Assembly: GCA_003666325.1 (NCBI GenBank)
Contig: QPIL01000116.1
Location: 1 to 64,000, forward strand
Source of the DNA: Methylococcales symbiont of Iophon sp. n. MRB-2018
GTDB taxonomy: Bacteria > Pseudomonadota > Gammaproteobacteria > Methylococcales > Methylomonadaceae
Direction of reading: 5' to 3'
Length of the DNA: 64,000 nt
Both the position numbers and the translations under genes were made by a program. This document shows, in pieces, positions 204 to 64,000 of this stretch. Within the stretch, counting starts at the first letter, position 1. Each line of letters opens with the position of its first letter. The notes under the pieces were generated by a model. That model did not search any database. It was given only the letters and a program-made list of their open reading frames with translations, and was not told where the DNA came from.

Positions 204-316
204 TAGTCTTTAGTCTTTAGTCTTTAGTCTTTAGTCTTTAGTCTTTAGTCTTTAGTCTTTAGTCTTTAGTCTTTAGTCTTTAGTCTTGAGTCTTGAGTCT
301 TTTTAAGCGTTGACTA
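204..316 (-). repeat. Heptamer tandem array plus left end of MITE family A
   Basis: Fourteen back-to-back 7-base units (12 TAGTCTT then 2 GAGTCTT, 204-301) run into TTTTAAGCGTTGACTA. That sequence is the reverse complement of the left terminal repeat of MITE family A (compare TAGTCAAGTCTTAAAA at 20761). It is therefore a deletion derivative: array and one end remain, while the 3' body is missing. Confidence 0.85.
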
Positions 317-6683: not shown

Positions 6684-7196
6684 TCATAACTTTTTCTCAT
6701 TTTTCGGTCTTCCTCTGGCTTTTAAGGTGCCTAATAATGTGCGACTTTTAAAAACTCTTTCTGCTAATGAGCCATAACGCCAATCTTGTGCTGTTGTGCT
6801 TAGCTTTGCTCTGAGTGCATTCGCCTCTATGTAACGAAATAGCGTTAAATAATAACTCTCTTTTTCAACCAAAAAGCTTTTAAATCTGCCTTGCCAAATA
6901 TATCCTGAGGTTTTGTTTTTCCTGTGGTAATAACGCACATGAGAGGTCATTACCCATTGCATAAACTTACTAAGACTCTTTTCACCTTGTGGCACTAATA
7001 ACAAATGAAAATGATTAGGCATAAGGCATAAGCAGTAGGCGTGTAGCTCTATGTTTTCTCTTTCAAACCCTGTTTTTAACAAAGTCAAAAAGTATTCATA
7101 ATCCTCTTTATCATCAAAAACCTGCATACGCATATTACCTCTATTGATGATGTGATAAATTCCGCCTTGGGTTTCTCCTCTGGGTATGCGTGGCAT
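6684..7196 (-). CDS. REP-associated tyrosine transposase (RAYT, Y1 HUH superfamily)
   Basis: 170 residues. PNHFHLLLVP (about 60-69) is the HUH metal-binding motif, and RYIEANALRA near residue 122 carries the candidate nucleophilic Tyr; MPRIPRGETQGGIYHIINRG is the standard N-terminus. RAYTs nick single-stranded DNA at REP hairpins and are believed to spread them. The gene is bracketed by an inverted pair of family R repeats that recur at 4497, 8113 and, in part, near 40053. It lies between two cassettes and seems to have removed the left end of attC 9. The basic tail (ARGRPKNEKKL) is typical. Confidence 0.93.
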   Translation of the reverse strand: MPRIPRGETQGGIYHIINRGNMRMQVFDDKEDYEYFLTLLKTGFERENIELHAYCLCLMPNHFHLLLVPQGEKSLSKFMQWVMTSHVRYYHRKNKTSGYIWQGRFKSFLVEKESYYLTLFRYIEANALRAKLSTTAQDWRYGSLAERVFKSRTLLGTLKARGRPKNEKKL

Positions 7197-18576: not shown

Positions 18577-18796
18577 TAGTCAATCCTTAAAAACACAACA
18601 ACCCTCTGATTTATAACAATAAATTAAACAAAAACCATAGATAAAAAAAGCAGTATTTGGTAAAATAACGGCTATTTCTTGGTCGTTTTGCTGATAAAAC
18701 ATACTAACAAAATCAACCCCGCCCAGACTTTAACACCCATAAGAAATCACCAAAAATCAAGGGGTCTTTAGTCTTTAGTCTTTAGTCTTTAGTCTC
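18577..18796 (-). repeat. MITE family A, internally deleted copy, reverse orientation
   Basis: Begins TAGTCAATCCTTAAAAACAC (right terminal repeat seen in reverse) and continues through the conserved 3' body to ATCAACCCC at about 18719. It then jumps to a segment (CCATAAGAAATCACC...AAATCAAGGGG) shared with 25520-25549 and ends in about four TTTAGTC units that touch the dnaQ stop codon. Confidence 0.85.
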
Positions 18797-20679: not shown

Positions 20680-20760
20680 AGCGTTTATTTTGAATTGTGT
20701 AATTGATGTTTCTTACTAAGAATATCCTATCTCGGGTAAAAATCTAATTTTTATCTTAAA

Positions 20761-21250
20761 TAGTCAAGTCTTAAAAAAGACTCAAGACTCAAGACTCAAG
20801 ACTAAAGACTCAAGACTAAAGACTAAAGACTAAAGACTAAAGACTAAAGACTAAAGACTAAAGACTAAAGACTCAAGACTAAAGACTCAAGACTAAAGAC
20901 TTAGGACTTAGGACTTAGGACTTAGGACTAAAGTAACTGGAACTTCTGTTACTACACGTCATTCCCGAAGTCTGTTATCGGGAATCTAGTTTTAAACACC
21001 CAGATTCCTGCTTAGAACATGCAGGAATGACGGAGGGAGTGAAGTGGATCTTATACCCTATTCAACAAATAACTCTGAATGAAAGAGCTTTAGTTGCTCT
21101 GTGTTTGGGGTTGATTTTGTTAGTATGTTTTATCAGCAAAACGACCAAAAAATAGCCGTTATTTTACCAAATACTGCTTGTTTTGCCTATGGTTTTTGTT
21201 TAATTTATTGTTATAAATCAGAGGGTTGTTGTGTTTTTAAGGGTTGATTA
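20761..21250 (+). repeat. MITE family A, full-length copy with 22-unit heptamer array
   Basis: The left end TAGTCAAGTCTTAAAA and right end TTTTTAAGGGTTGATTA form terminal inverted repeats bounded by TA. Inside lie 22 heptamers (20779-20932: GACTCAA, GACTAAA, then GACTTAG), then the stem AGTAAC...GTTACT, a CGTCATTCC...GGAATGACG hairpin and a conserved 180-base 3' body (GGGGTTGATTTTGTTAGTAT ... TTATTGTTATAAATCA). No ORF of note. Confidence 0.92.
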
Positions 21251-21369
21251 AATATAGATGGGATTTTACTTTTTTTTACAGAGTTTATTTTTAATATTGT
21301 GATATGAGGGAATATGGCTTTGTGATAATGCTTATACCCAATAAACTTAGAACCCAAAAGGGTAAGATA

Positions 21370-21612
21370 AAGATGTTCAACAATGATACAGATAAAGAAT
21401 GGGAAAAGATGATCCATACTTTGCTGTTATTACAGATGAGAATAAAGAATAATTTTTCAAGTCTGGTGATATTTATATTGACAATGTTTTAACAAAAATC
21501 AGCCAGCACATCGACCCAACTTTTTACTATCAAGAAAACTCTCGATTTTGGGTGTGGAGTTGAAAGGCTGGTCATTCCACTTGCGAATGTTGCTGAAGAA
21601 GTTACTGGTATT
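21370..21612 (+). pseudogene. Decayed N-terminal part of a SAM-dependent methyltransferase
   Basis: Three frames together spell a class I methyltransferase start: NDTDKEWEK, then DPYFAVITDE and FKSGDIYIDNVLTKISQHID, then TLDFGCGVERLVIPLANVAE with motif I (LDFGCG). At least two frameshifts and a stop are needed to connect them. The reading ends at about 21612, where the inner end of a family B repeat (TTGTTGAACATGGTAT) begins, suggesting the gene was cut there. Confidence 0.7.
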
Positions 21613-21717
21613 TTTGTTGAACATGGTATAAAAGCTTAAAATTAAATAAAATTTAGCTGTTTTTAAGCTGATGGGGTGGTTTTTAAAGATTGACTAATTA
21701 AATTTTGAGAGTTTTAT

Positions 21718-22731
21718 ATGCATCATAAAATCAGCTTGTCTCAGTTTATTACTGAGCAACATCGACAATCATTAGTCAATGAAGATCTATCTTCTTTGTT
21801 AAATGATATTGCTACCGCTTGCAAACAAATATCTCACTTAACTAGCCAAGGTGATTTAATGGGTACTTGGGGTGATTCTGACTCTGAAAATATACAGGGA
21901 GAAGTACAAAAAAGACTGGACATCATCAGTAATGATTATATGTTTAATGCCCTTAACTGGACTGGACATTTAGCTGGCATGGTATCAGAAGAAGAAGATG
22001 AACCGATGGATATACCAGACATTTATCCCCGAGGAAAATACCTTGCATTATTCGACCCTTTAGATGGCTCCTCCAATATTGATGTCAACCTCACCGTAGG
22101 CACTATATTTTCAATTCTCTGTTGTGAACAAGGAATTAAACCAAGTCACCAGGATTTCTTGCAAAAAGGAGGCAAACAAGTCTGTGCGGGGTTTGTACTT
22201 TATGGCCCGTCAACCATGCTGGTTCTAACAACAGGTCAAGGTGTTAATGGCTTTACCCTTAATCAGGAAATTGGTGAGTTTTATCTGTCCCATCCTAAGA
22301 TGAAAATTCCTCAAGATACCCAAGAATTTGCTATTAATATGTCTAATCAACGCTTCTGGGAAGCACCCGTGCAACAATATATTGCAGAGTGTATTGAGGG
22401 TAGCGATGGTATCCGTGGTAAAGATTTTAATATGCGCTGGATTGCTTCATTAGTTGCTGAGGTTTATAGAATATTAACCCGTGGCGGTATTTTTATCTAT
22501 CCTTATGACTTTAAAGACCCCGCTAAAGAAGGTCGATTACGTCTTATGTATGAAGCCAATCCCATCGCTTTTATAGTAGAACAAGCTGGCGGACTCTGCT
22601 CCACTGGACGTGAGCGCATGTTGGATATTGCCCCTAAAGAAATTCATCAACGTGTGCCTGTTATCTTAGGTGCTAAAAATGAAGTCAATCGTCTTGACTC
22701 ATACTATAAGGAATTTGACGCATGTAAATAG
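21718..22731 (+). CDS. fbp: Class I fructose-1,6-bisphosphatase
   Basis: 337 residues. Metal and substrate sites are visible: EEEDE (91-95), DPLDGSSNID (113-122), and DGIRGKDFNMRWIASLVAE later. It dephosphorylates fructose 1,6-bisphosphate in gluconeogenesis and, in autotrophs, the Calvin cycle. The last codons are TGT AAA TAG. TAG is formed by the TA target plus the first G of the family A MITE that starts at 22729, so the stop codon is MITE-derived; the sequence beyond the element (TA AATAG) indicates the original stop was TAA. A second MITE lies upstream. Confidence 0.97.
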   Translation: MHHKISLSQFITEQHRQSLVNEDLSSLLNDIATACKQISHLTSQGDLMGTWGDSDSENIQGEVQKRLDIISNDYMFNALNWTGHLAGMVSEEEDEPMDIPDIYPRGKYLALFDPLDGSSNIDVNLTVGTIFSILCCEQGIKPSHQDFLQKGGKQVCAGFVLYGPSTMLVLTTGQGVNGFTLNQEIGEFYLSHPKMKIPQDTQEFAINMSNQRFWEAPVQQYIAECIEGSDGIRGKDFNMRWIASLVAEVYRILTRGGIFIYPYDFKDPAKEGRLRLMYEANPIAFIVEQAGGLCSTGRERMLDIAPKEIHQRVPVILGAKNEVNRLDSYYKEFDACK

Positions 22732-23162
22732 TCAAGTCTTAAAAGCCTAAAAAAGACTCAGGACTCAGGACTCAAGACTCAAGACTCAAGACTCAAGACT
22801 CAAGACTCAAGACGAAAGACTAAGAACTAAGAACTAAGAACTAAAGTAACTGGAACCTCTGTTACCACACGTCATTCCCGAAGTCTGTTATCGAGAATCT
22901 CGTTTTAAACATCTGGATTTCTGCTTAGAACATGCAGAAATGACGGGGAAGTGACGTGGCTCTTATGCCCTATTCAACAAATAACTCTGAATGGAAGAGC
23001 TTTAGTTGCTCTGTGTTTGGGGTTGATTTTGTTAGTATGTTTTATCAGCAAAACGACCAAGAAATAGCCGTTATTTTACCAAACACTGCTTATTTTGTCT
23101 ATGGTTTTTGTTTAATTTATTGTTATAAATCAGGTGGTTGTTGTGTTTTTAAGGGTTGACTA
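22729..23162 (+). repeat. MITE family A, full-length copy whose end forms the fbp stop
   Basis: TA at both ends, inverted ends TAGTCAAGTCTTAAAA and TTTTTAAGGGTTGACTA. Thirteen heptamers (22755-22845: GACTCAG, GACTCAA, GACGAAA, AACTAAG) precede the same hairpins and 3' body as in the copy at 20761. Same orientation as that copy; together they bracket fbp. Confidence 0.92.
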
Positions 23163-25362: not shown

Positions 25363-25570
25363 ACTGAGAAATCACATCACCCATAAAATTTCCAGCTTTT
25401 TGGTCAGTTCGCAGCCTGTGGGGTCTTATCCCAAAACTCCCATCATTCACACAAAAACCAATCAATTTAACCATTATTTTGCATAATCCACACAAATGGC
25501 TACCCAGCCCTTAACGCCATAAGAAATTACCAAAAATCAAGGGGATTTTAGTCTTTAGTCTTTAGTCCTA
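25363..25570. other. Non-coding stretch with a shared segment and three heptamers
   Basis: Holds no gene. CCATAAGAAATTACCAAAAA (about 25520) and ATCAAGGGG are shared with the region before dnaQ (18738-18764). Three TTTAGTC units at 25548-25568 adjoin the end of the dhaL-like gene, again placing heptamers next to a - strand stop codon. Confidence 0.7.
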
Positions 25571-26471: not shown

Positions 26472-28496
26472 ATGGGGTTTCTAGTTATTATTGTTCTAGC
26501 CGGAATTGTTTATACGCTTTTACCAAAAAAAGCGAATGAAAATTTGCTTGATACAGCACCTATTGATCTGGATATGGATCAGACTTATTACAGAGAAGAA
26601 AATGAAGCACAGCGATTAAGAGAAGAACGTTTGACACAGGAAGAGTATGAGATACAACAGCGTAGACTAGCATCTACTGCTGAATATGATTTAGAACAAC
26701 GTGAAGTAAGAATAAACCAAATAGAAACTGAATTAGAAACTCGGCAGTTTGGACTTAAAGAACAAGCTAGTAGATTATCTCGTGATGAATTAGAAACCAA
26801 TCAAACTCAACTAAACCTGAATGAACTACAAGATAAAATTTATCATGATGCGCTAGCTATTAAACAAGACCAAGATGCACTGAATGATCGTGAATTAGAT
26901 TTAGAAAGAGAAAGTAATCGCCTAAACCAATTTCGAGATAATTTAGCAGCAGAAGAAGAGTCAATTAGTCAGCAACAACAAAACGCTAGAGAAACCCAAT
27001 ACCAACTAGAAATCAAGCAAGAAGAAATAACCAAAAAAGAACTTGAAGTTACCCATTTAATTGAGCAATCTGAACGCGAATTAAAATCATTACGTGATGA
27101 TTTAGATTTAAAAGTATCTCAAATATCTGAAAACATAAATGTAATAGGTGTTACACAATCAGATATTAGTGAGACACAAACCAGAGCTTCTCAGGCAGAA
27201 CAAATTGCAATTAATATGCAAGTTGATCTGCAAAATCGTGAAGCGCAAGTGATTAAAGAAGAACGGCAAAATTTAATTATCCAAGAAGAGTTTTCAAATC
27301 AACAGCAAGAACTATCAAACATTCAAAATCAAATAACATCCAGAGAGGAGGAAATCTCTCGCATGGAGCGTGAGGTTGCTGATTCGGCAGCCCAAAAAGA
27401 AATTGAATTAGGTCGTCTGCAAGATGAACTGAATGGCCAGTCTCGAAGACTGTTCGAGGATCAGCAAGTTTTAGTTGCTATCAGAGACGATCTGGACACT
27501 AAAGAACAAGCTATTCTTCAACATGAAAGAGACACACTTCAAGTACAGGATGATTTGAAATACCGTCAAGCTCAAATTGATACAGATGAAGCCTCTATTC
27601 AATCTTTTCAGCAAGAGTTGCAAAGTCAAGGAGAAAAGATTGCACAACAAGAACAACAAACCAGAGATGCTCAATATGCTTTGAATGAAAAGGCAGAGGA
27701 AATTGTTAGAAAAGAGCGAGAAGTCCTTGTTTTACAGAAAGAGATAGAATATAGAGTTGAAATAGAAAGGACTGAAACAGAAAGGACTGAAATAGAAAGG
27801 GCTGAAATAGAAAGGACTGAAATAGAAAGGGCTGAAATAGAAAGGACTGAAATAGAAAGGGCTGAAATAGAAAGGGCTGAAACAGAAAGGACTGAAATAG
27901 AAAGGGCTGAAATAGAAAGGGCTGAAATAGAAAGGGCTGAAATAGAAAGGGCTGAAATAGAAAGGGCTGAAACAGAAAGGGCTGAAACAGAAATTTCCGA
28001 GATAAAACCCGTTATTGAAAATGAACGAGCAGAAATAGAGCGCCCTGAAGAAGTAGATGTGCCTGATGATACAGCTAGCGAGCCACCTCTTACAGAAGAA
28101 CAGATAAGATTAATTCAGAATAGTTGGAAAATGCTTGTTCCAGTGAAAGAACAAACGGCTGCATTGTTTTACAAGAAATTATTTTTGATAGCTCCTGAAG
28201 TCAGGCCTTTATTTACAAATGATATTAATAGTCAAGGTAAAAAATTAATTGCCTCAATCAATCTGGTCGTTAATTCATTAAATAATCTGGAGCATGTTGT
28301 ACCCGCCCTTCAAGCTATGGGAGAACGCCATGTAACTTATGGTGTTGAGCCTGTGCATTATGATATTGTTGCTGTTGCCTTGTTATGGACTTTTGAACAA
28401 GGCCTGGGTGATGCTTTTACAGAAGATGTTAAAGAAGCATGGACGATTGCTTATGGTTTAATTGCTTCAACAATGATTGCTGATATTGCAGAATAA
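26472..28496 (+). CDS. Membrane-anchored long coiled-coil protein with C-terminal globin domain
   Basis: 674 residues. Residues 2-17 form one N-terminal membrane helix. Residues about 40-520 are Glu/Gln-rich and predicted continuous coiled coil, containing 16 tandem pentapeptides ([AT]E[IT]ER, 429-508). Residues 540-674 form a single-domain globin of the flavohaemoglobin/Vgb class: LTEEQIRLIQNSWKML, a CD1-like Phe in LFTND, and a likely proximal His in MGERHVTYGV (H620). No reductase domain follows. Binding of heme and O2 or NO is inferred from the fold. Placed alone, with a 255-base upstream space and a GAGGATA-type ribosome binding site. The full architecture is not one I recognise. Confidence 0.85.
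   Translation: MGFLVIIVLAGIVYTLLPKKANENLLDTAPIDLDMDQTYYREENEAQRLREERLTQEEYEIQQRRLASTAEYDLEQREVRINQIETELETRQFGLKEQASRLSRDELETNQTQLNLNELQDKIYHDALAIKQDQDALNDRELDLERESNRLNQFRDNLAAEEESISQQQQNARETQYQLEIKQEEITKKELEVTHLIEQSERELKSLRDDLDLKVSQISENINVIGVTQSDISETQTRASQAEQIAINMQVDLQNREAQVIKEERQNLIIQEEFSNQQQELSNIQNQITSREEEISRMEREVADSAAQKEIELGRLQDELNGQSRRLFEDQQVLVAIRDDLDTKEQAILQHERDTLQVQDDLKYRQAQIDTDEASIQSFQQELQSQGEKIAQQEQQTRDAQYALNEKAEEIVRKEREVLVLQKEIEYRVEIERTETERTEIERAEIERTEIERAEIERTEIERAEIERAETERTEIERAEIERAEIERAEIERAEIERAETERAETEISEIKPVIENERAEIERPEEVDVPDDTASEPPLTEEQIRLIQNSWKMLVPVKEQTAALFYKKLFLIAPEVRPLFTNDINSQGKKLIASINLVVNSLNNLEHVVPALQAMGERHVTYGVEPVHYDIVAVALLWTFEQGLGDAFTEDVKEAWTIAYGLIASTMIADIAE
27756..27995 (+). 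repeat. In-gene 15-base tandem array (16 units)
   Basis: Sixteen units of GCTGAAATAGAAAGG and close variants (ACTGAAATAGAAAGG, GCTGAAACAGAAAGG) inside the coiled-coil globin gene. The units are in frame, so changes in copy number would lengthen or shorten the coil without a frameshift. Confidence 0.95.
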
Positions 28497-28608: not shown

Positions 28609-29044
28609 TAGTTAATCCTTAAAAACCACCTAAAAAAGACTCAGGACGAAGGACTCAAGACTCAAGACCCTTTGGTTTTTGATTAGTTCTGGTGCGTGGA
28701 ACGCACCCTACGGACTAAGGACTAAAGTAACTGGAACCTCTGTTACCACACGTCATTCCCGAAGTCTGTTATCGGGAATCTAGTTTTAAACACCTAGATT
28801 CCTGCTTAGAACATGCAGGAATGACGGAGGGAGTGAAGCGGATCTTATACTATGTTCAACAAATAACTCTGAATAAAAGAGGTTTAGTTGCTCTGTGTTT
28901 GGGGTTGATTTTGTTAGTATGTTTTATCAGAAAAACGACCAAGAAATAGCTGTTATTTTACCAAATACTGCTTGTTTTGTCTATGGTTTTTGTTTAATTT
29001 ATTGTTATAAATCAGATGGTTGTTGTGTTTTTAAGGGTCGACTA
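28609..29044 (+). repeat. MITE family A copy carrying a foreign GTGCG insert
   Basis: TA-bounded ends TAGTTAATCCTTAAAAACC and TTTTTAAGGGTCGACTA. Only about 4 heptamers (28638-28668), then TTGATTAGTTCTGGTGCGTG and GAACGCACCCTACGGAC, a segment also seen in the copies at 42850 and 63935, before the common hairpins and 3' body. The following 480 bases to 29532 hold no gene; a family B end-like ATACCATGTCCAACAAATAA lies at about 29238. Confidence 0.88.
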
Positions 29045-30791: not shown

Positions 30792-30883
30792 ATATCAAGC
30801 ATATTCAGATATTATCAGAGGCAAAGGCCGACCTTGACCATGGGAGGTGTTTCTATGCAAGCCAAGAACAAGAGTTAGGTTGA
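30788..30883 (+). pseudogene. Truncated ParE/RelE toxin
   Basis: ATG at 30788 overlaps the antitoxin stop. The frame reads MNIKHIQILSEAKADLDHGR then CFYASQEQELG and stops after 31 codons where sequence of an IS630-type transposase begins. The N-terminus matches ParE-type toxins (ILSEAxxDLxxGxxFYxSQExGLG), so the toxin was cut off by the insertion. Confidence 0.75.
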
Positions 30884-31110
30884 TCGGACTTAGCCATATC
30901 CAAAATGGAAAAAGCTACCAACAAGTAGCACAATATCTCTTACAAAGTTTAAGCACTATCAAACAATGGGATCGACATTGAGACCTCAGCATAACTCTGG
31001 AACGATCTTGCCAGGCTTGGAATGAAATACTAAATGAGGATGGTTTTGTTAGAAACTTGTGCGGTAGAGAGTGGAGTTGTTTGGTTTGGTTTGGTTATTT
31101 TTTGAATATT
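30878..31110 (+). pseudogene. Internally deleted IS630-family transposase remnant
   Basis: RLIGLSHIQNGKSYQQVAQY and LLQSLSTIKQW (30878-30970) match the N-terminal HTH of IS630 transposases. After a piece of family C hairpin (GAGACCTCAGCATAACTCTG, 30973-31000) comes CQAWNEILNEDGFVRNLCGR plus EWSCLVW (31009-31090), the usual C-terminus. The catalytic middle is missing. The C-terminal part recurs at 40064. Confidence 0.7.
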
Positions 31111-36425: not shown

Positions 36426-36538
36426 CCAAAGTAACTGGAACCTCTGTTACACACGTCATTCCCAAAGTCTGTTATCGGGAATCTAGTTTTAAACACCTGG
36501 ATTCCTGCTAAGAACATGCAGGAATGACGGAGGGAGTG
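36426..36538 (+). repeat. Central fragment of MITE family A
   Basis: AAAGTAACTGGAACCTCTGT followed by the CGTCATTCCC...GGAATGACGGAGGG hairpin and AGTGAAGT, as in the full copies, without heptamers, terminal ends or 3' body. Lies between the RiPP genes and the autotransporter. Confidence 0.85.
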
Positions 36539-36643
36539 AAGTAATTGGGAAGCGGACACGATCATGGGTAAAAATCACACAGATGTTTTTGTTACATTGG
36601 ACATGTAGGGCGAGCGACCGCTCCCCCTACATGCCCCTATATG

Positions 36644-39600
36644 CTAAAACTTAAAGTCGCCACGCAACTCTATGCTATCCCCTTTTTCTCTACGCTCGCC
36701 TATTAGGTTTAGGCTCAATATAGAATCAATTGTCCAGCGTCCGCCTATATTATAGCTTTGTGTACCGTTTGTTAGGTTTGCCCCAGCGTAAGGGCTGAGT
36801 AAACCACGACCAAAGAACCCAGGTAGTCCGTAACCTAACTCGGTGTTTAACTGTAGGCTTCTATTGTTGTTGTTATCCTCATCATTTGCATCGTTTACAC
36901 CATTTTCGTAGCTATTAGTTACTATGGATGACCGCTGCCCTATTCTATTGCCAACATTGTCTGGCGTGTCGCCCCAAGCAGGTTGTAGGCTTAACCATAA
37001 ACCTTGCCCACTGTTGTTGGCTTGGTATTTGACCAGTCCACTGAGTCCCCATTCTTTGTAATTTGACTCATGTGCCACTAAACCATGCGCCCGTAACTCC
37101 ATTTGTAGTCCTTGTAGGTTGCTGTAACGGTAGCTACCTGCTAACTCTATGCCACCACCAGTCTCACCACTGCCATCGTCATAACGTATTCCTAGCTCTA
37201 TGGATGGGCTGATGCTGGCACCGCTGGCTAGGGTATGTTTATGACTACCTTCTAATACCATACGGTAACGACGGGCATCAATGGACAATCCTTTAGAATC
37301 CGTTAGCTTGCTTTTACCCACCTTAATATTAGATAGCGATACCTCGCCTTTAAGGCGTAGGGTGGTGGTGCCGGGTATATCTAGCCAGTTATCGCTGGAT
37401 AATAGATTGTCACTACCACCAAAGGCGAGACTATATAGCTCGGTGTCACGGTTAGTTTTGGTTTCGATGCCATTGCTGTCATCGTCAATTTCTACCTCGC
37501 CCTGACCATAACCTAATGTACCCCAGACACGTCCGCCTGGTGATAAATCATAAGCAATATAAGGGTGAACGCTGTATAGGGTATGGTTCAGGTTGCCTTC
37601 GCTGTTATTTGTGCTATCGCGTTTATAGTCAACATCGCTTTCGCTGTAAGAGAAAGCGGCACCAGCCACTAGGTCTTGGTTTATACGGGCATCAATACCC
37701 ACAGTACCACCGACTATTCCACCTTCCCAGTCAACGCCAGAGACATCATCTGCAAGGTTCAGGTAATCACCACTGCCCCATAGTGTCATATTATTAACAC
37801 CGTAGTCATTATCCCCTGCTACATTCAGCGGGATGAGGAAAGAGGAATTATTAAGCATTTGTTTAAGGTTCAATCCTTTTTCTATCACAGTGCGGGCATT
37901 GTTATTGATTAGCTCTTGCAAGTTTGAGCTACCCCCTAGATTAAGGCTGACATTGGCAGTGTCTGTTGGGGAGGTAGATAATGCTTGGTCAATACGGTTG
38001 CTGATATTGTCCACTGCCATTTTTGATGTTGCTCTTAGCAGTTGTGGCAGGATGGCATCTAGCACTTGCTCTTCGGCTGCGGCGTTTAAACTGTCACCAT
38101 TGGTGACGGTGACGGTATAGGTCACGATGCTTGTGTCATTTCCTGCAGTCACTACAATGCTAATGGTGTTATTACCCTCGCTCAGTCCAGAGACTCGCCC
38201 GTTGGCATCGACTGTCAAAGCACTGCCGTCTGCCGCCGTACCACTAATGACAAAGCTGGCATTGCTATCAGAGAGGGTTGGGGTTACAGTCAGGCTGGTT
38301 ACCGCATTAGCAATGCTGACGTCGTAGTCAATCGTACCGCTGGCAAAGACTGGGTCTAAGGTGCCAGCGGACAAGGTTAAGGCACTCAAGCTGGCAACGG
38401 TGTGATCCAGTGTATAACTTGGCTGATTAGCGTCTGTGTCTGTGGGTGTGGTGTTAGTTAAGATTCTACCTGCCGTATCTGTAATGTTCTGATTGCTAGC
38501 AAATGCCAGCGTTACAGTGCCGTTTAGCGCTGCTAGATTGCCGCCAGTAACGTTTACTAGATACACGGCACCTGAGCCGGTAACAGTGGCTGTGGCAGTG
38601 GTGCCGCTAACCGTAAAGTCGGTACCATCTACATTCTGTACATCTCTACTAAAAGTTACCGTCCAGATGAGTGTGTCGGCACTGGTGGTTTCAGCAGTCG
38701 GCGAGGTGCGCATTATGCTGGTTACGGCTGGAAGGCCAACAGCTACTGTGAAATCTATGCTGTTACTGGTGCCAAACTCTGCGTTGTCTACGGCAATGCG
38801 CACGGTATAAGTGCCATCTGCTACCATGCCTGAATTAAAGCTTAGAGTATTTGATACAAGGGCAAATCTTGCATTATCGCTACCCTCAGCGGCATCACCC
38901 GTTGCCAGTGTGTATGTTGGGTTTTGACCGCTTAAAACAGCATTTTGGGCGACAAAGTTAAAGTCAAGTACGTTTAAGTTATCAACCCCGCCATAATCAG
39001 AGTTTGCTGTTTGTAGATCAGCAACAGTCTCATCAACATACCAACGACCGAGGTTTTGGTTAAAAACATTGGCATTGGTGAACATGCTGGCCATATCCAT
39101 TACGCTAGCAACATTCCAGCCGCCGATGTCTTGATTAAAAGCCCTGGCACTGGAGAACATGAAGTTCATATCCGTTACCCTAGCAACATTCCAGCTACCG
39201 ATGTCTTGATTAAAATCACTGGCAGTGAAGAACATCTGGTTCATATTCGTTACGCTAGCAACATTCCAGCTACCGATGTCTTGATTAAAATCACTGGCAC
39301 CATCGAACATGCCGGCCATATCCGTTACGCTAGCAACATTCCAGCCGCCGATGTCTTGATTAAAAACATTGGTATCGGCGAACATGCTGGACATATTCGT
39401 TACGCTAGCAACATTCCAGTTACTGATGTTTTGATTAAAAACAGCAACAGCGGCACCGGCAAACATAAGGCGCATACTCGTTACCCCGCTAAGGTCTGGA
39501 CTATCGTTTGCACTCATCATCATCGCGTTGGCACCATGAAATGCACCCTCCATGCTCGTCCAGTTGGCAGTTCCCCATTGCTGTACGTCTATTAATTTCT

Positions 39601-39910
39601 CTCTATCCATGCCAGAACTCAAGTTAAAGCGGGTGATGGTGTTTGAGACTGTGACTGTGTAGTCGCCAGCAGTGGCGTAGTCATGCGTAGGGTTACTGCT
39701 TGCAATGACTTCGGTAGTACCATCGCCCCATTTAATGGTGTAACTGCCCTCACTAGGGAAGGTCAGAGTCAGATCATTCGCAGGCATCCGCCATTCGGTA
39801 TTAAATGATTCGTGTGAGCTTGCCTGTGAGGCGGTGCTGAATAAAAAACCCGATGCCAGTAGCAGTAGCATGGGAGTAACAATACGGCGGGTAATATTTG
39901 TTTTTAACAT
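36644..39910 (-). CDS. Autotransporter with BspA-like (DUF285) repeats and Ig-like domains
   Basis: 1088 residues. Signal peptide about 1-30 (LLLLASGFLFSTASQAS). A PKD-like part follows (EGSYTIKWGDGTTEVIASS). Six repeats of about 25 residues with the pattern MxxMFxxAxxFNQDIGxWNVASVT mark DUF285 at about 110-290. Ig-like and cadherin-like segments come next (VTSIMRTSPTAETTSADTLI; LSALTLSAGTLDPVFASGTI). A linker and a C-terminal autotransporter barrel (about 800-1088, ending ELRGDFKF with terminal Phe) complete it. It should be exported through the outer membrane as a surface adhesin or receptor. Stands alone; base composition is higher in G+C than its surroundings, suggesting transfer. Confidence 0.92.
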   Translation of the reverse strand: MLKTNITRRIVTPMLLLLASGFLFSTASQASSHESFNTEWRMPANDLTLTFPSEGSYTIKWGDGTTEVIASSNPTHDYATAGDYTVTVSNTITRFNLSSGMDREKLIDVQQWGTANWTSMEGAFHGANAMMMSANDSPDLSGVTSMRLMFAGAAVAVFNQNISNWNVASVTNMSSMFADTNVFNQDIGGWNVASVTDMAGMFDGASDFNQDIGSWNVASVTNMNQMFFTASDFNQDIGSWNVARVTDMNFMFSSARAFNQDIGGWNVASVMDMASMFTNANVFNQNLGRWYVDETVADLQTANSDYGGVDNLNVLDFNFVAQNAVLSGQNPTYTLATGDAAEGSDNARFALVSNTLSFNSGMVADGTYTVRIAVDNAEFGTSNSIDFTVAVGLPAVTSIMRTSPTAETTSADTLIWTVTFSRDVQNVDGTDFTVSGTTATATVTGSGAVYLVNVTGGNLAALNGTVTLAFASNQNITDTAGRILTNTTPTDTDANQPSYTLDHTVASLSALTLSAGTLDPVFASGTIDYDVSIANAVTSLTVTPTLSDSNASFVISGTAADGSALTVDANGRVSGLSEGNNTISIVVTAGNDTSIVTYTVTVTNGDSLNAAAEEQVLDAILPQLLRATSKMAVDNISNRIDQALSTSPTDTANVSLNLGGSSNLQELINNNARTVIEKGLNLKQMLNNSSFLIPLNVAGDNDYGVNNMTLWGSGDYLNLADDVSGVDWEGGIVGGTVGIDARINQDLVAGAAFSYSESDVDYKRDSTNNSEGNLNHTLYSVHPYIAYDLSPGGRVWGTLGYGQGEVEIDDDSNGIETKTNRDTELYSLAFGGSDNLLSSDNWLDIPGTTTLRLKGEVSLSNIKVGKSKLTDSKGLSIDARRYRMVLEGSHKHTLASGASISPSIELGIRYDDGSGETGGGIELAGSYRYSNLQGLQMELRAHGLVAHESNYKEWGLSGLVKYQANNSGQGLWLSLQPAWGDTPDNVGNRIGQRSSIVTNSYENGVNDANDEDNNNNRSLQLNTELGYGLPGFFGRGLLSPYAGANLTNGTQSYNIGGRWTIDSILSLNLIGERREKGDSIELRGDFKF

Positions 39911-40389
39911 TTTTTTAACTCTGTAATTGGCGAATTTAATCTAGGGTAGGGATGACCGTTGTAGAATAACAACATGATAGAAAAATGCAAGGGGAAAATA
40001 ATTAGGGTCAGAGAATAAACAAAATTCAAAAAATAATAACACTATAAACAGATGGATAATAGGGACAGGCTTGGAATGAAATACTAAATGAGGATGGTTT
40101 TGTTAGAAGTTTGTGTAGTAGAGAGTGGAGTTGTTTGGTTTTGTTATTTTTTGAATATAGTATAATATCCTCCCATCAATAAAAAACAAGCATCCAGTTT
40201 CCAGTAAGATTTTCTCCTTTGATTTCTTTGATTTCAAGACAGTATTTGACCCCTTGATTCTTTTCGTGCCTTTACCGTCATCCGTGCCTTTATCGTGGAT
40301 TCCCGCGTTCGCGGGAATGGCGATAGAGTACAAACCAAGATTGATTTTCAAGACAGTATCTGAGCCCTTGATTTAATTCACAAATATTT
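39911..40389. other. Non-coding stretch with IS630 and REP scraps
   Basis: Contains a partial family R-like GGATAATAGGGACAGGCTTG (40051), which runs into a copy of the IS630 C-terminus (40064-40135: QAWNEILNEDGFVRSLCSRE WSC), and TTCCCGCGTTCGCGGGAA at about 40299, a small hairpin. No gene seen. Confidence 0.65.
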
Positions 40390-41525: not shown

Positions 41526-42752
41526 ATGAATACAAATAAGTATCCAATTACTGCTTTTCTAATCGGTTTGAGCCTATATTCGCAGTTTCTAAATGCGGAA
41601 CAAGATATTTTAAACACCCCTCTGTTTCAAAATAAGTTTTTTACCCTATCAACAGATCATTCATTAATTTGTGAAACCAGTAAAGTGGCTTATATGTCAA
41701 CGGAGAAGTTGCTGAAAACCATTCATTATTATGAAAAACACAACCCAAAAGAGTTGCGTAAATTTGCCGTTGCAGTATTAACGGATCATGCTACTGAGGA
41801 GCACCAAGAGGATTTACATGATTACAGGGAAGATTGTAAGGAGTCTATAGCATTAGAGATTTGTGTTTTAGAAAAATATTGGGATGATAATGAAACAGCA
41901 TTAAGAGTATTGGCTCTGTTTTACGATACCAAAACCATTGTAAAACATAGTGAATTCTATCAGGCAAGGCGTTTTAACAAGGATCATTTGCGTGTTTTTG
42001 AAAAAGCAATTCGTAAAATACCGCCTTTTATGCGTAAGAAAATCAGCCGGGCAAAACCAATTAGACATCTTGAAAAAGAGATAGAAAATTTAGATTCTAA
42101 AATACAGGTACTTATTCAGGATGCTTTTCCAGATGATTTTGCAACAAGTATATGGTCTGATGATACTCATCCTCTGACTTTTGTTCCCAGTAAAGGGTTT
42201 AATAGTCAGGTTGTTGCACAGGTTTATAGTGGTCAGAATCTGATTATTTTTACCGTAAAGGCTTTTGATAAGGGCAAAGATGGGCGTTTATATAGGGATA
42301 TAGATTTGAAATATTTGGTTGATTTCAGAATCCCTATTATTGTGCATGAAATAGCACATACCATTGATAATTTTCATTTTTGGAATGGTGATGATGTCTT
42401 ATATTATTTTTATCGCTATCGTAAAATATCAACCGATAATGAAACTGTCAAAATGATTATGGATTCTAAATTAGCACTTTGGCCTTCAAAATGGTTTGAA
42501 GCCTTTGAATATTTATGGGAGGTGAATGACGGGCGTTATGATGGGCAAATTCAGGAAAAACTGGCAGAACTCGTTGCCCAATATATTTTAATACCTAGGC
42601 GATTAAAAAAAAGCACACCGAAAGGTTATCAATGGTTACGAAATGATGTTTTTAAAACTATTGAATATAGTGGTTATGATACCTGTACCCAACCGATTAT
42701 TAAGACTTTGAATTGGTGGGAATATTCGATTGCTAAAGTGCTAGGGGATTAG
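41526..42752 (+). CDS. Putative secreted HExxH metallopeptidase-like protein, unrecognised family
   Basis: 408 residues. The N-terminus MNTNKYPITAFLIGLSLYSQ ends FLNA/EQ, a probable signal peptide. The rest is rich in charged and aromatic residues with HEIAH at 274-278 (in PIIVHEIAHTIDNFHFWNGDD), the zinc-binding HExxH of gluzincin/metzincin-type peptidases. Downstream Glu candidates are in WFEAFEYLWEVND and EKLAELVAQYIL. I do not recognise the family. It is flanked by a family B element upstream and a heptamer-bearing MITE immediately downstream. Confidence 0.8.
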   Translation: MNTNKYPITAFLIGLSLYSQFLNAEQDILNTPLFQNKFFTLSTDHSLICETSKVAYMSTEKLLKTIHYYEKHNPKELRKFAVAVLTDHATEEHQEDLHDYREDCKESIALEICVLEKYWDDNETALRVLALFYDTKTIVKHSEFYQARRFNKDHLRVFEKAIRKIPPFMRKKISRAKPIRHLEKEIENLDSKIQVLIQDAFPDDFATSIWSDDTHPLTFVPSKGFNSQVVAQVYSGQNLIIFTVKAFDKGKDGRLYRDIDLKYLVDFRIPIIVHEIAHTIDNFHFWNGDDVLYYFYRYRKISTDNETVKMIMDSKLALWPSKWFEAFEYLWEVNDGRYDGQIQEKLAELVAQYILIPRRLKKSTPKGYQWLRNDVFKTIEYSGYDTCTQPIIKTLNWWEYSIAKVLGD

Positions 42753-42767
42753 GGGATCAGGGCTCAA

Positions 42768-43157
42768 GACGAAAGACTAAAGACTAAAGACTAAAGACTA
42801 AAGACTAAAGACTAAAGACTAAAGACTAAAGACTAAGAACTCCTTGATTTTTGATTAGTTCTGTATTTCCACCATCCCTAGTGGGCAAACGCACCCTACG
42901 GATCTAAAGACTCAGAAGTAGGGTGCGTTTGACCGCCAGGGATGGTGGAAATGCAGTAAGATTGTCTGGAACAATCTCTGTCCACGCACCAGAACTGGGG
43001 TTGGGGTTGGGGTTGGAATTGATTTTGTTAGTATGTTTTATCAGCAAAACGACCAAAAAATAGCCGTTATTTTACCAAATACTGCTTGTTTTGTCTATGG
43101 TTTTGTTTAATTTATTGTTATAAATCAGATGGTTATTGTGTTTTTAGGGGCTGACTA
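42768..43157 (+). repeat. MITE family A copy with hairpin insert, left end lost
   Basis: Ten heptamers (42768-42837, GACGAAA then GACTAAA, GACTAAG) start 15 bases after the metallopeptidase stop. A long inverted repeat follows: ATTTCCACCATCCCTAGTGG ... CCGCCAGGGATGGTGGAAAT with GCACCCTACGG/GTAGGGTGCG. Then the family A 3' body ends GGGGCTGACTA at 43157. The left terminal repeat and the CGTCATTCC hairpin are absent. Confidence 0.88.
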
Positions 43158-50880: not shown

Positions 50881-50934
50881 AACATGCAATAATACAAAAT
50901 TCAAAAAATAATAATACTATAAATAGGCAGATCA

Positions 50935-51470
50935 GACTAAAGACTAAAGACTAAAGACTAGAGACTCAGGACTTCGGACTTAGCCCTATCCAAAAGGGAA
51001 AATATAGCAATAAGTAGTTAACCCTTAAAAATACCATAACCATTTTATTTATAATAATAAACCCAACAAAAACCATAGAAATACAAGCAGTATTTGGTAA
51101 AATAACGGCTATTTCTTGGTCGTTTTGCTGATAAAACATACTAACAAAACCAACCCCAAACACAGAGCAACTAAACCTCTTTCATTCAGAGCTATTTGTT
51201 GAACATGGCATAAGAGCCGCGTCATTCCTCCATGTTCTAAGCAGAAATCTAGGTGTTTAAAACGAGATTCCCGATAACAAACTTAGGGAATGACCTGTGG
51301 TAACAGAAGTTCCAGTTACTTTAGTCCTGAGTCTTTCGTCTTTCGTCTTTCGTCTTTCGTCTTTCGTCTTTCGTCTTTCGTCTTTCGTCTCAAGCAGTAT
51401 TTGGTAAAATAACGGCTATTTCTTGGTCGTTTTGCTGATAAAACATACTAACAAAATCAACCCCAAAAAT
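50935..51470 (-). repeat. Nested family A MITEs with two heptamer arrays in the pilT-yggS gap
   Basis: Array one: 7 units 50935-50983 (GACTAAA to GACTTAG), which merges with GACTTAGCCCTATCCAAAAG, a relic of the IS630 N-terminus seen at 30888. Then a reversed copy starts TAGTTAACCCTTAAAAATAC (51015), runs through body and hairpins to array two (51320-51382: TTTAGTC, CTGAGTC, then 7 TTTCGTC). It is followed at 51384 by a second partial 3' body (AGCAGTATTTGGTAAAATAA ... AAATCAACCCC). Confidence 0.88.
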
Positions 51471-55790: not shown

Positions 55791-55807
55791 AATTGGCTTA
55801 TATTACT

Positions 55808-55949
55808 GTAACTACTCAGCTCACCCTCTATTTTGTCCAATAGCCGCGTTGAAAGTACGCATTTACACCTGTAAACTTCGTGCTTTCGCTTATGCTTTTG
55901 AACAAAATAGAGACAATCTAAGCAGTTACGGAGTATGCTGAGTAGCTAC
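55808..55949. repeat. Long nested inverted repeat between glnA and ntrB
   Basis: GTAACTACTCAGCTCACCCT and TGCTGAGTAGCTAC ends; inside are CTCTATTTTGTCCAA and TTGAACAAAATAGAG, and an inner GAAAGTACGC/GCTTTCGC-like part. About 142 bases; transcribed it could fold as a cruciform-like structure. Seen only once in this window. Confidence 0.7.
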
Positions 55950-55980
55950 ATATTACTCTGCTTACAAAGCCACCATCAGA

Positions 55981-58921: not shown

Positions 58922-59173
58922 AATAATTCCAAGTTAAATAGGTTAGTTCTTGTGAAACCAAGCAAAGCATATACCACTTTAGGCTTGTTGTAAAGTAGCA
59001 ACTTAAAAGTATGTGTAAGTATTTTGTGTAAGTATTTATAGTATAAAAGATGATAAGTTTGGTGCGGTTTGTTTTTAGAAAGAGATGTCCGTTCTTTTTG
59101 GTGTAGCTGTTGTTAGCTAACAACAAATGATGCGTTACTTTGTAATATCATTGATATTAAGTGAGAAATATAT
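58922..59173. other. Upstream region of the OMP gene before the MITE
   Basis: No gene seen. Two TTGTGTAAGTATTT-like direct repeats (TGTGTAAGTATTTTGTGTAA at about 59011) are present. A promoter for the OMP must lie here. Confidence 0.4.
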
Positions 59174-59179
59174 AAAAAA

Positions 59180-59657
59180 GACTCAAGACTCAAGACTCAA
59201 GACTCAAGACTCAAGACTCAAGACTCAAGACTCAAGACTCAAGACTCAAGACTAGAGACTTAGGACTTAGGACTTAGGACTTAGGACTTAGGACTTAGGA
59301 CTTAGGACTTAGGACTTAGAACTTAGGACTTAGGACTAAAGTAACTGGAACCTCTGTTACCACGTCATTCCCGAAGTCTTTATCGGGAATCTCGTTTTAA
59401 ACACTTGGATTTCTGCTTAGAACATGCAGGAATGGCGGAGGGAGTGACGCGGATCTTATACCCTATTCAACAAATAACTCTGAATGAAAGAGCTTTAGTT
59501 GCTCTGTGTTTGGGGTTGATTTTGTTAGCATATTTTTTAAGCAAAACGACCAAGAAATAGCCGTTATTTTACCAAATACTGCTTGATTTATCTATGATAT
59601 TTGTTCAATTTATTGTTATAAATCAAATTGTTATGGTGTTTTTAAGGGTTGACTAAT
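59180..59657 (+). repeat. MITE family A, 23-unit heptamer array
   Basis: Twenty-three units (59180-59340: GACTCAA first, then GACTTAG, AACTTAG, GACTAAA), then AGTAACTGGAACCTCTGTTA, the CGTCATTCC hairpin and the 3' body, ending TTTTTAAGGGTTGACTA. The left terminal repeat is weak or lost. It lies between the OMP gene and the glnK promoter; it may affect spacing from upstream sites. Confidence 0.9.
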
Positions 59658-63596: not shown

Positions 63597-64000
63597 TAGT
63601 CAACCCTTAAAAACACCATAACCATCTGATTTATAACAATAAAACCAACAAAAACCATAGACAAATCAAGCGGTATTTGGTAAAATAACGGCTATTTCTT
63701 AGTCGTTTTTCTGATAAAACATACTAACAAAATCAACCCCAAACACAGAGCAGCAAAACCTCTTTCATTCAGAGTTATTTGTTGAACAGATATAAGAACC
63801 GCCTCACTCCCACCGTCATTCCTGCATGTTCTAAGCAGAAATCCAAGTATTTAAAACTAGACTCCCGATAACAGACTTCGGAAATAACGTGTACTAACAG
63901 AAGTTCCAGTTACTTGAGTCCTGAGTCTTTAGATCCGTAGGGTGCGTTTGCCCGCCAAGGATGGTGGAAATGCAGTAAGATTGTCTGGAACAATCTCTGC
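63597..64000 (-). repeat. MITE family A, reverse copy running to window end
   Basis: Begins TAGTCAACCCTTAAAAACAC, contains the reversed 3' body and hairpins, two or three heptamers (GAGTCCTGAGTCTTTAG, 63917-63933), then the GTAGGGTGCGTTTGCCCGCC segment shared with the copies at 28690 and 42900. The 63488-63596 stretch carries no gene. Confidence 0.88.

Follow-up and report, generated by a model that had tools for sequence, protein, structure and literature searches.

A stretch of 64,000 nt (the window), taken from contig C115 of a 2.09-Mb, 123-contig draft genome (G000), carries copies of a genuine repeat family that recurs throughout the genome. The repeated element is a MITE, and is very probably a non-autonomous deletion derivative of an IS5-family insertion sequence (IS) in which the middle has been replaced by a hairpin module and heptamers. 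The reference element (20761–21250) consists of inverted ends (TIRs), an array of ~22 heptamers, the hairpin module and an IS-derived end of 184–185 bp. As a family, these elements are short, non-coding and multicopy, share their TIRs with an IS, and retain 185 bp of the IS left end together with 16–50 bp of the right end. The first-pass annotation, made from the letters of the window, had recognised a high-copy MITE that has TIRs, duplicates its target and contains a minisatellite, and this description stands. The places that it listed in the window, at least eight substantial copies plus fragments, are all real, with the IS-derived body present at 18577, 20761, 22729, 28609, 42757, 50934–51467 (a compound), 59173 and 63597, and absent from 204–316 and 36434–36542 (Table 1).

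Table 1. Positions of the reference element, its parts and related copies in the window
Feature	Position	Strand	Remark
Duplicated target TAAATA of reference element, left copy	20757..20762	.	identical 6-mer at 21249–21254
Array-side TIR TAGTCAAGTCTTAAAA	20761..20776	+	matches right end of parent IS
Heptamer array, ~22 units, blocks AAGACTC / AAAGACT / AGGACTT	20776..20933	+	
Hairpin module: GTAAC stem and REP-like double hairpin CGTCATTCCCG...CAGGAATGACGG	20934..21066	+	fold z -2.8
First 185 bp of IS5-family IS: non-coding end and start of transposase frame	21067..21250	-	88% to L158 (G030 IS copy)
IS-left TIR, TAATCAACCCTTAAAA in reference copy	21235..21250	-	from comparison with parent IS
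Duplicated target TAAATA, right copy	21249..21254	.	pairs with 20757..20762
Complete two-ended copy, TAAATA duplicated	22729..23162	+	site empty in G030
Two-ended copy, few heptamers; other hairpin repeats on array side	28609..29044	+	
Copy with two homogenised arrays (GACTCAA then GACTTAG), without array-side TIR	59173..59655	+	
Copy with IS-left TIR; array side merges into other repeats	63597..63927	-	
Short copy: IS-left 145 bp, module B, four heptamers	18577..18795	-	dnaQ stop codon lies in first heptamer
Copy: array, other hairpin repeats, IS-left end	42757..43157	+	array starts 15 nt past stop of ORF 41526–42752
Compound of two copies	50934..51467	.	second IS-left stretch at 51391–51467
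Array and array-side TIR, body missing	204..316	-	
Hairpin module alone	36434..36542	+	
Three heptamers then module B	25547..25567	-	starts 8 nt after a stop codon
Parent IS right-end fragment (IS positions 1455–1541)	21596..21684	+	

The inverted ends described in the first-pass annotation were recovered genome-wide, with 170 matches to TAGTCAANNCTTAAAA at ≤1 mismatch compared to 3 for a reversed control. Further copies of the body were also found, at least 40 of them at 86–96% identity (40 of 236 candidates scored), and when 84,980 species were searched with an exact body pattern of 31 bases, no outside matches appeared. Arrays and ends were counted on eight sample contigs totalling 426 kb, in which we found 38 IS-left ends of ≥100 bp, extrapolating to ~190 per genome, and 22 composites of hairpin module and IS end. 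The two hairpins noted earlier hold up as well, since the module folds better than its shuffles (z -2.8), and its REP-like part also occurs alone in other genera of the family.

What had been taken for a 180-base body of the MITE is indeed a multicopy sequence, but it is in fact the end of an IS, corresponding to parent IS positions 1–185 at 88% identity. Ends that lack the MITE body pointed to a longer element, whose end we located in G030, the closest relative from the same genus, with genes 92–95% identical to those of G000. Two nearly complete copies of the parent IS are present in G030 (L158 and L162), each ~1.56 kb long with identical TAGTCAACCCTTAAAA ends, and their transposase frames are divided into 110–124 and 360 codons by a break near position 612. 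The 360-aa part matches the IS5-family model NF033578 (292.6 bits, cut-off 275) as well as DDE_Tnp_1, and the array-side TIR of the MITE corresponds to the right end of this IS. Related IS5 elements sit on Campylobacterota plasmids (protein identity 52–59%), and two of these have TIRs that are 2–3 mismatches from GTCAACCCTTAAAA and TANNTA-like flanks, for example TATTTA on both sides. In the G000 assembly, an intact IS5 transposase gene was not found, only fragments, two of which run off contig ends; this, along with the broken frame in both G030 copies, makes present activity doubtful.

The same target preference is apparent in the MITE. Over 61 distinct ends, the outer flank reads TANNTA, with T, A, T and A found in 57, 56, 60 and 59 of 61, so that the earlier report of TA at both boundaries holds insofar as TA is present, but this dinucleotide is part of TANNTA, and only a minority of copies, three or four in the window, keep the array-side TIR at all. 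TANNTA flanks both sides in 13 of 22 two-ended copies, and NN is identical in 9 of these 13, compared to a mean of 2.0 and a maximum of 7 in 2000 shuffles; as TA also closes the TIR, duplications of 2 (NN), 4 or 6 bases look the same. Empty sites were seen in G030 as well: the clean one at the position of the 22729 copy (GCAAATAGATG) falls four bases short of the length expected from a TA-only duplication. This site and the NN matches contradict TA-only duplication, while one further site, L022, fits either that or a minor array-side loss. The matching ends, target duplications and empty sites suggest that the transposase of the IS acted in trans to spread the MITE into TANNTA sites.

The heptamer array next to the hairpin module is genuine. 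The 426-kb sample contains 59 arrays of ≥3 units, whereas a shuffle has none; an element module is found within 120 bp of 36 of these arrays, and all 57 of 57 period-7 arrays belong to one unit family, GACTNAR and near relatives. Some arrays adjoin module B, GGTGCGTGGAACGCACC hairpins or a ~52-bp tandem repeat without any MITE sequence, so the heptamer appears common to several local repeats and not strictly part of the MITE. Array lengths are unreliable in this draft assembly, in which some contigs end inside arrays. Within arrays, variants stand in identical blocks, such as CCCCCCAAAAAAACCCCCCAAAAAAA (C = GACTCAA, A = GACTAAA), the pattern that slippage leaves, suggesting that the arrays expanded in this way. 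The two-ended copy L126 in G030, in which just three units separate the hairpin module from the right end of the IS, is likely the ancestral form. Matches to a heptamer trimer number 1440 in G000, 31 in G030, 16 in G125 (at two contig ends) and 0 in nine others, with a single match in 397 genomes of further Pseudomonadota, no more than in the reversed control. From these counts, array expansion is close to lineage-specific. Parent IS, few-repeat form in a relative and expanded form in G000 thus allow the order of events to be read: a REP-like hairpin module with a few heptamers would have taken the place of the middle of an IS5-family IS, giving the form still present in G030, and the heptamers would then have expanded by slippage in the G000 lineage.

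Two further ideas about the arrays were rejected. A structured RNA received neither an Rfam match nor folding support, arrays folding worse than shuffles (z +2.2). Arrays of GACTMAR x4 do occur in at least 107 stretches over many phyla (cyanobacteria, Planctomycetota, Acidobacteria and Bacteroidota), where they likely arose by slippage, but the unit was not shown to be specially favoured across bacteria, its trimer remaining at reversed-control level in other Pseudomonadota.

The notable part of this system is a one-sided replacement of flanks that reaches up to, and sometimes into, the stop codon of the next gene. In most copies, the array side has no TIR and stops in heptamers. Of 49 such TIR-less array ends, 17 are within 20 bp of the end of an ORF, in every case a stop codon, compared to 1 of 37 IS-left ends (ORFs ≥90 aa in the 426-kb sample; Fisher p 0.0003, with copies not fully independent). 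On the TIR side, homology to G030, the one genome on which the close-relative comparison rests, restarts ≤~3 bp from the element in eight copies (L003, L007, L009, L011, L017, L022, L025 and L026), whereas on the array side L025, L009, L019 and L030 lack ~100–700 bp that G030 has; where the G030 spacer is longer, some sites may instead reflect an insertion in G030. For 19 genes flush with arrays, homology to G030 (and G054 where possible) stops 0–28 nt before the array, and several genes end in element-encoded codons. The C-terminus of dnaQ reads LGD* compared to LEK* and LDE* in the orthologues from G030 and G054, and other element-encoded termini are QDSGLRT* instead of QSTAS*, DTGDSGLKTKD* instead of ETGSMNN* and KKSQDSGLKTKDSGLK* instead of NKTTQRTP*. 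On contig C22, two convergent genes each have an array ending on their stop codon, the two arrays facing opposite ways. The repeats have therefore re-written the ends of conserved genes. The process behind the replacement was probably deletion: an unstable array-side end would lose its TIR and the flank until sequence under selection, typically a stop codon, is reached, so that at times the array encodes the final residues and the stop codon.

Different explanations have been weighed against this account. Mobilisation by an IS630/Tc1-type transposase, as proposed in the first-pass annotation, could draw on TA at both boundaries, on IS630-like remnants in the window and on DDE_3 fragments in the genome; the remnants look genuine in translation, but nothing in common with the MITE was found in them, and DDE_3 fragments are all that the genome offers of an IS630. 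The IS with these ends is the IS5-family element, which has identical ends and a further 185 bp of shared sequence, and with a duplication involving TANNTA and a 22729 empty site that does not suit TA duplication, an IS630/Tc1 parent is almost certainly wrong. The frequent absence of the array-side TIR, the variable tail and the arrays ending at stop codons could alternatively reflect one-ended or RNA-mediated spread, in which the IS-left end alone inserts, the heptamer tail is a SINE-like variable end and gene 3' ends are preferred. We consider this quite improbable, as two-ended copies with matching target duplications exist and native gene ends are missing compared to relatives, which points to deletion.

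The arrays might also have a function at the 3' side of genes, as terminators or stop cassettes, and owe their position at gene ends to selection. All of the close array ends (17 of 17) are at stop codons, GACTAA, GACTTAG and GACTAGA units supply stops in all frames within three units, and the hairpin module comes after the array. Yet the arrays fold poorly compared to shuffles, many are far from any gene end, and they are lineage-specific and highly variable; selection against deletions that enter genes would account for their position without a function, leaving this explanation unlikely. Under the IS5-derived account, no host function would be needed, and the MITE would be a selfish element carrying an unstable satellite in a reduced genome. 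More tentatively, the arrays could act as a one-directional deletion engine, expanding, removing the TIR and flank up to a stop, supplying new gene ends and so helping to reduce the genome of a vertically transmitted symbiont. G000 is probably the genome of a deep-sea sponge symbiont. The window has a GC content of 37.7%, and other members of the genus mostly have genomes of 3.1–3.9 Mb; sponge methane-oxidising symbionts have been described as vertically transmitted, with 37.7 ± 0.1% GC and 2.0–2.2 Mbp (PMC6474228). With the asymmetry of the ends, it becomes testable whether satellite expansion in mobile elements is linked to the loss of intergenic DNA in symbionts.

A MITE bearing a minisatellite, singled out earlier as unusual, is uncommon but has been published before. 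In Porphyromonas gingivalis, the MITEs BrickBuilt and MITEPgRS have TIRs like those of the IS5 family and contain a tandem array of 23- or 41-nt units; there are ~19 element copies and no transposase remnant (PMC4596501). Compared by description, BrickBuilt resembles the present element in its IS5-type TIRs, its array between a distinct leader and tail, its intergenic location and its many copies lacking one or both TIRs, matching the frequent TIR loss here. It differs in that here the unit is 7 nt, there are ~190 IS-left ends, the parent IS is identified and adjacent gene ends are replaced. ATR elements of Neisseria meningitidis, MITEs with associated direct repeats, have the IS5-family ISNme1 as proposed parent (PMC4596501); they share an IS5-family parent with the element described here, but that description contains no heptamer array. 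In Beggiatoaceae, a single intergenic heptamer dominates, the TAACTGA repeats (PMC4679880), which likewise represent one heptamer in the intergenic arrays of a gammaproteobacterial lineage with a patchy distribution, although the unit here is of the GACTNAR family. A TAACTGA-like regulatory role was rejected, the position being opposite, with arrays here at stop and not start codons. A resemblance to REP/RAYT systems lies in the REP-like hairpin module and in the REP-like GGTGCGTGGAACGCACC repeats next to arrays, but the MITE ends are of IS5 type. A minisatellite in an IS5-type MITE had thus already been described; what the present family adds is an identified parent, its scale, a copy of ancestral type and the replacement of gene ends.

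Other repeats were observed in the same surroundings. REP-like hairpins (GTAGGGTGCGTTCCACGCACC) are scattered beside heptamer arrays, and a Y1_Tnp protein (IS200-like, RAYT-type) is encoded at 6684–7196 (-); together, these possibly constitute a REP/RAYT system. Module B (CCTTGATTTTTGGTAATTTCTTATGGG...AAAGTCTGGG...), which looks like a second repeat family, repeatedly follows arrays (window 25547 and 18740–18795; G000 C12:50425, C22:38556 and C27:16935). The ~52-bp tandem repeat GGATGGTGGAAATGCAGTAAGATTGTCTGGAACAATCTCTGC occurs at many loci (for example window 42935–42990 and L095), often nested in array-side regions, and a ~160-bp repeat (GCCGCGTTGAAAGTGCGCATTTACACCTGTAAACTC...; window 55800–55960, L129, L132 and L222) is shared with G030, where it may be split by or adjoin a GACTAAA array. 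The only unrelated heptamer array seen, (TTCAACT)n, adjoins the MITE TIR at the right flank of L018 (G000 C106).

The IS630-like transposase remnants lie at 30878–30975 (helix-turn-helix-like, GKSYQQVAQYLLQSLSTIKQWDRH) and 40060–40140 (C-terminal, AWNEILNEDGFVRSLCSREWS). The window also encodes a 674-aa coiled-coil protein with a C-terminal globin domain (26472–28496), whose gene contains a 15-base in-frame repeat array at 27758–27993, and a 1088-aa protein with DUF285 repeats and a cadherin-like domain (36644–39910), the C-terminal part of which has many paralogues in G030.
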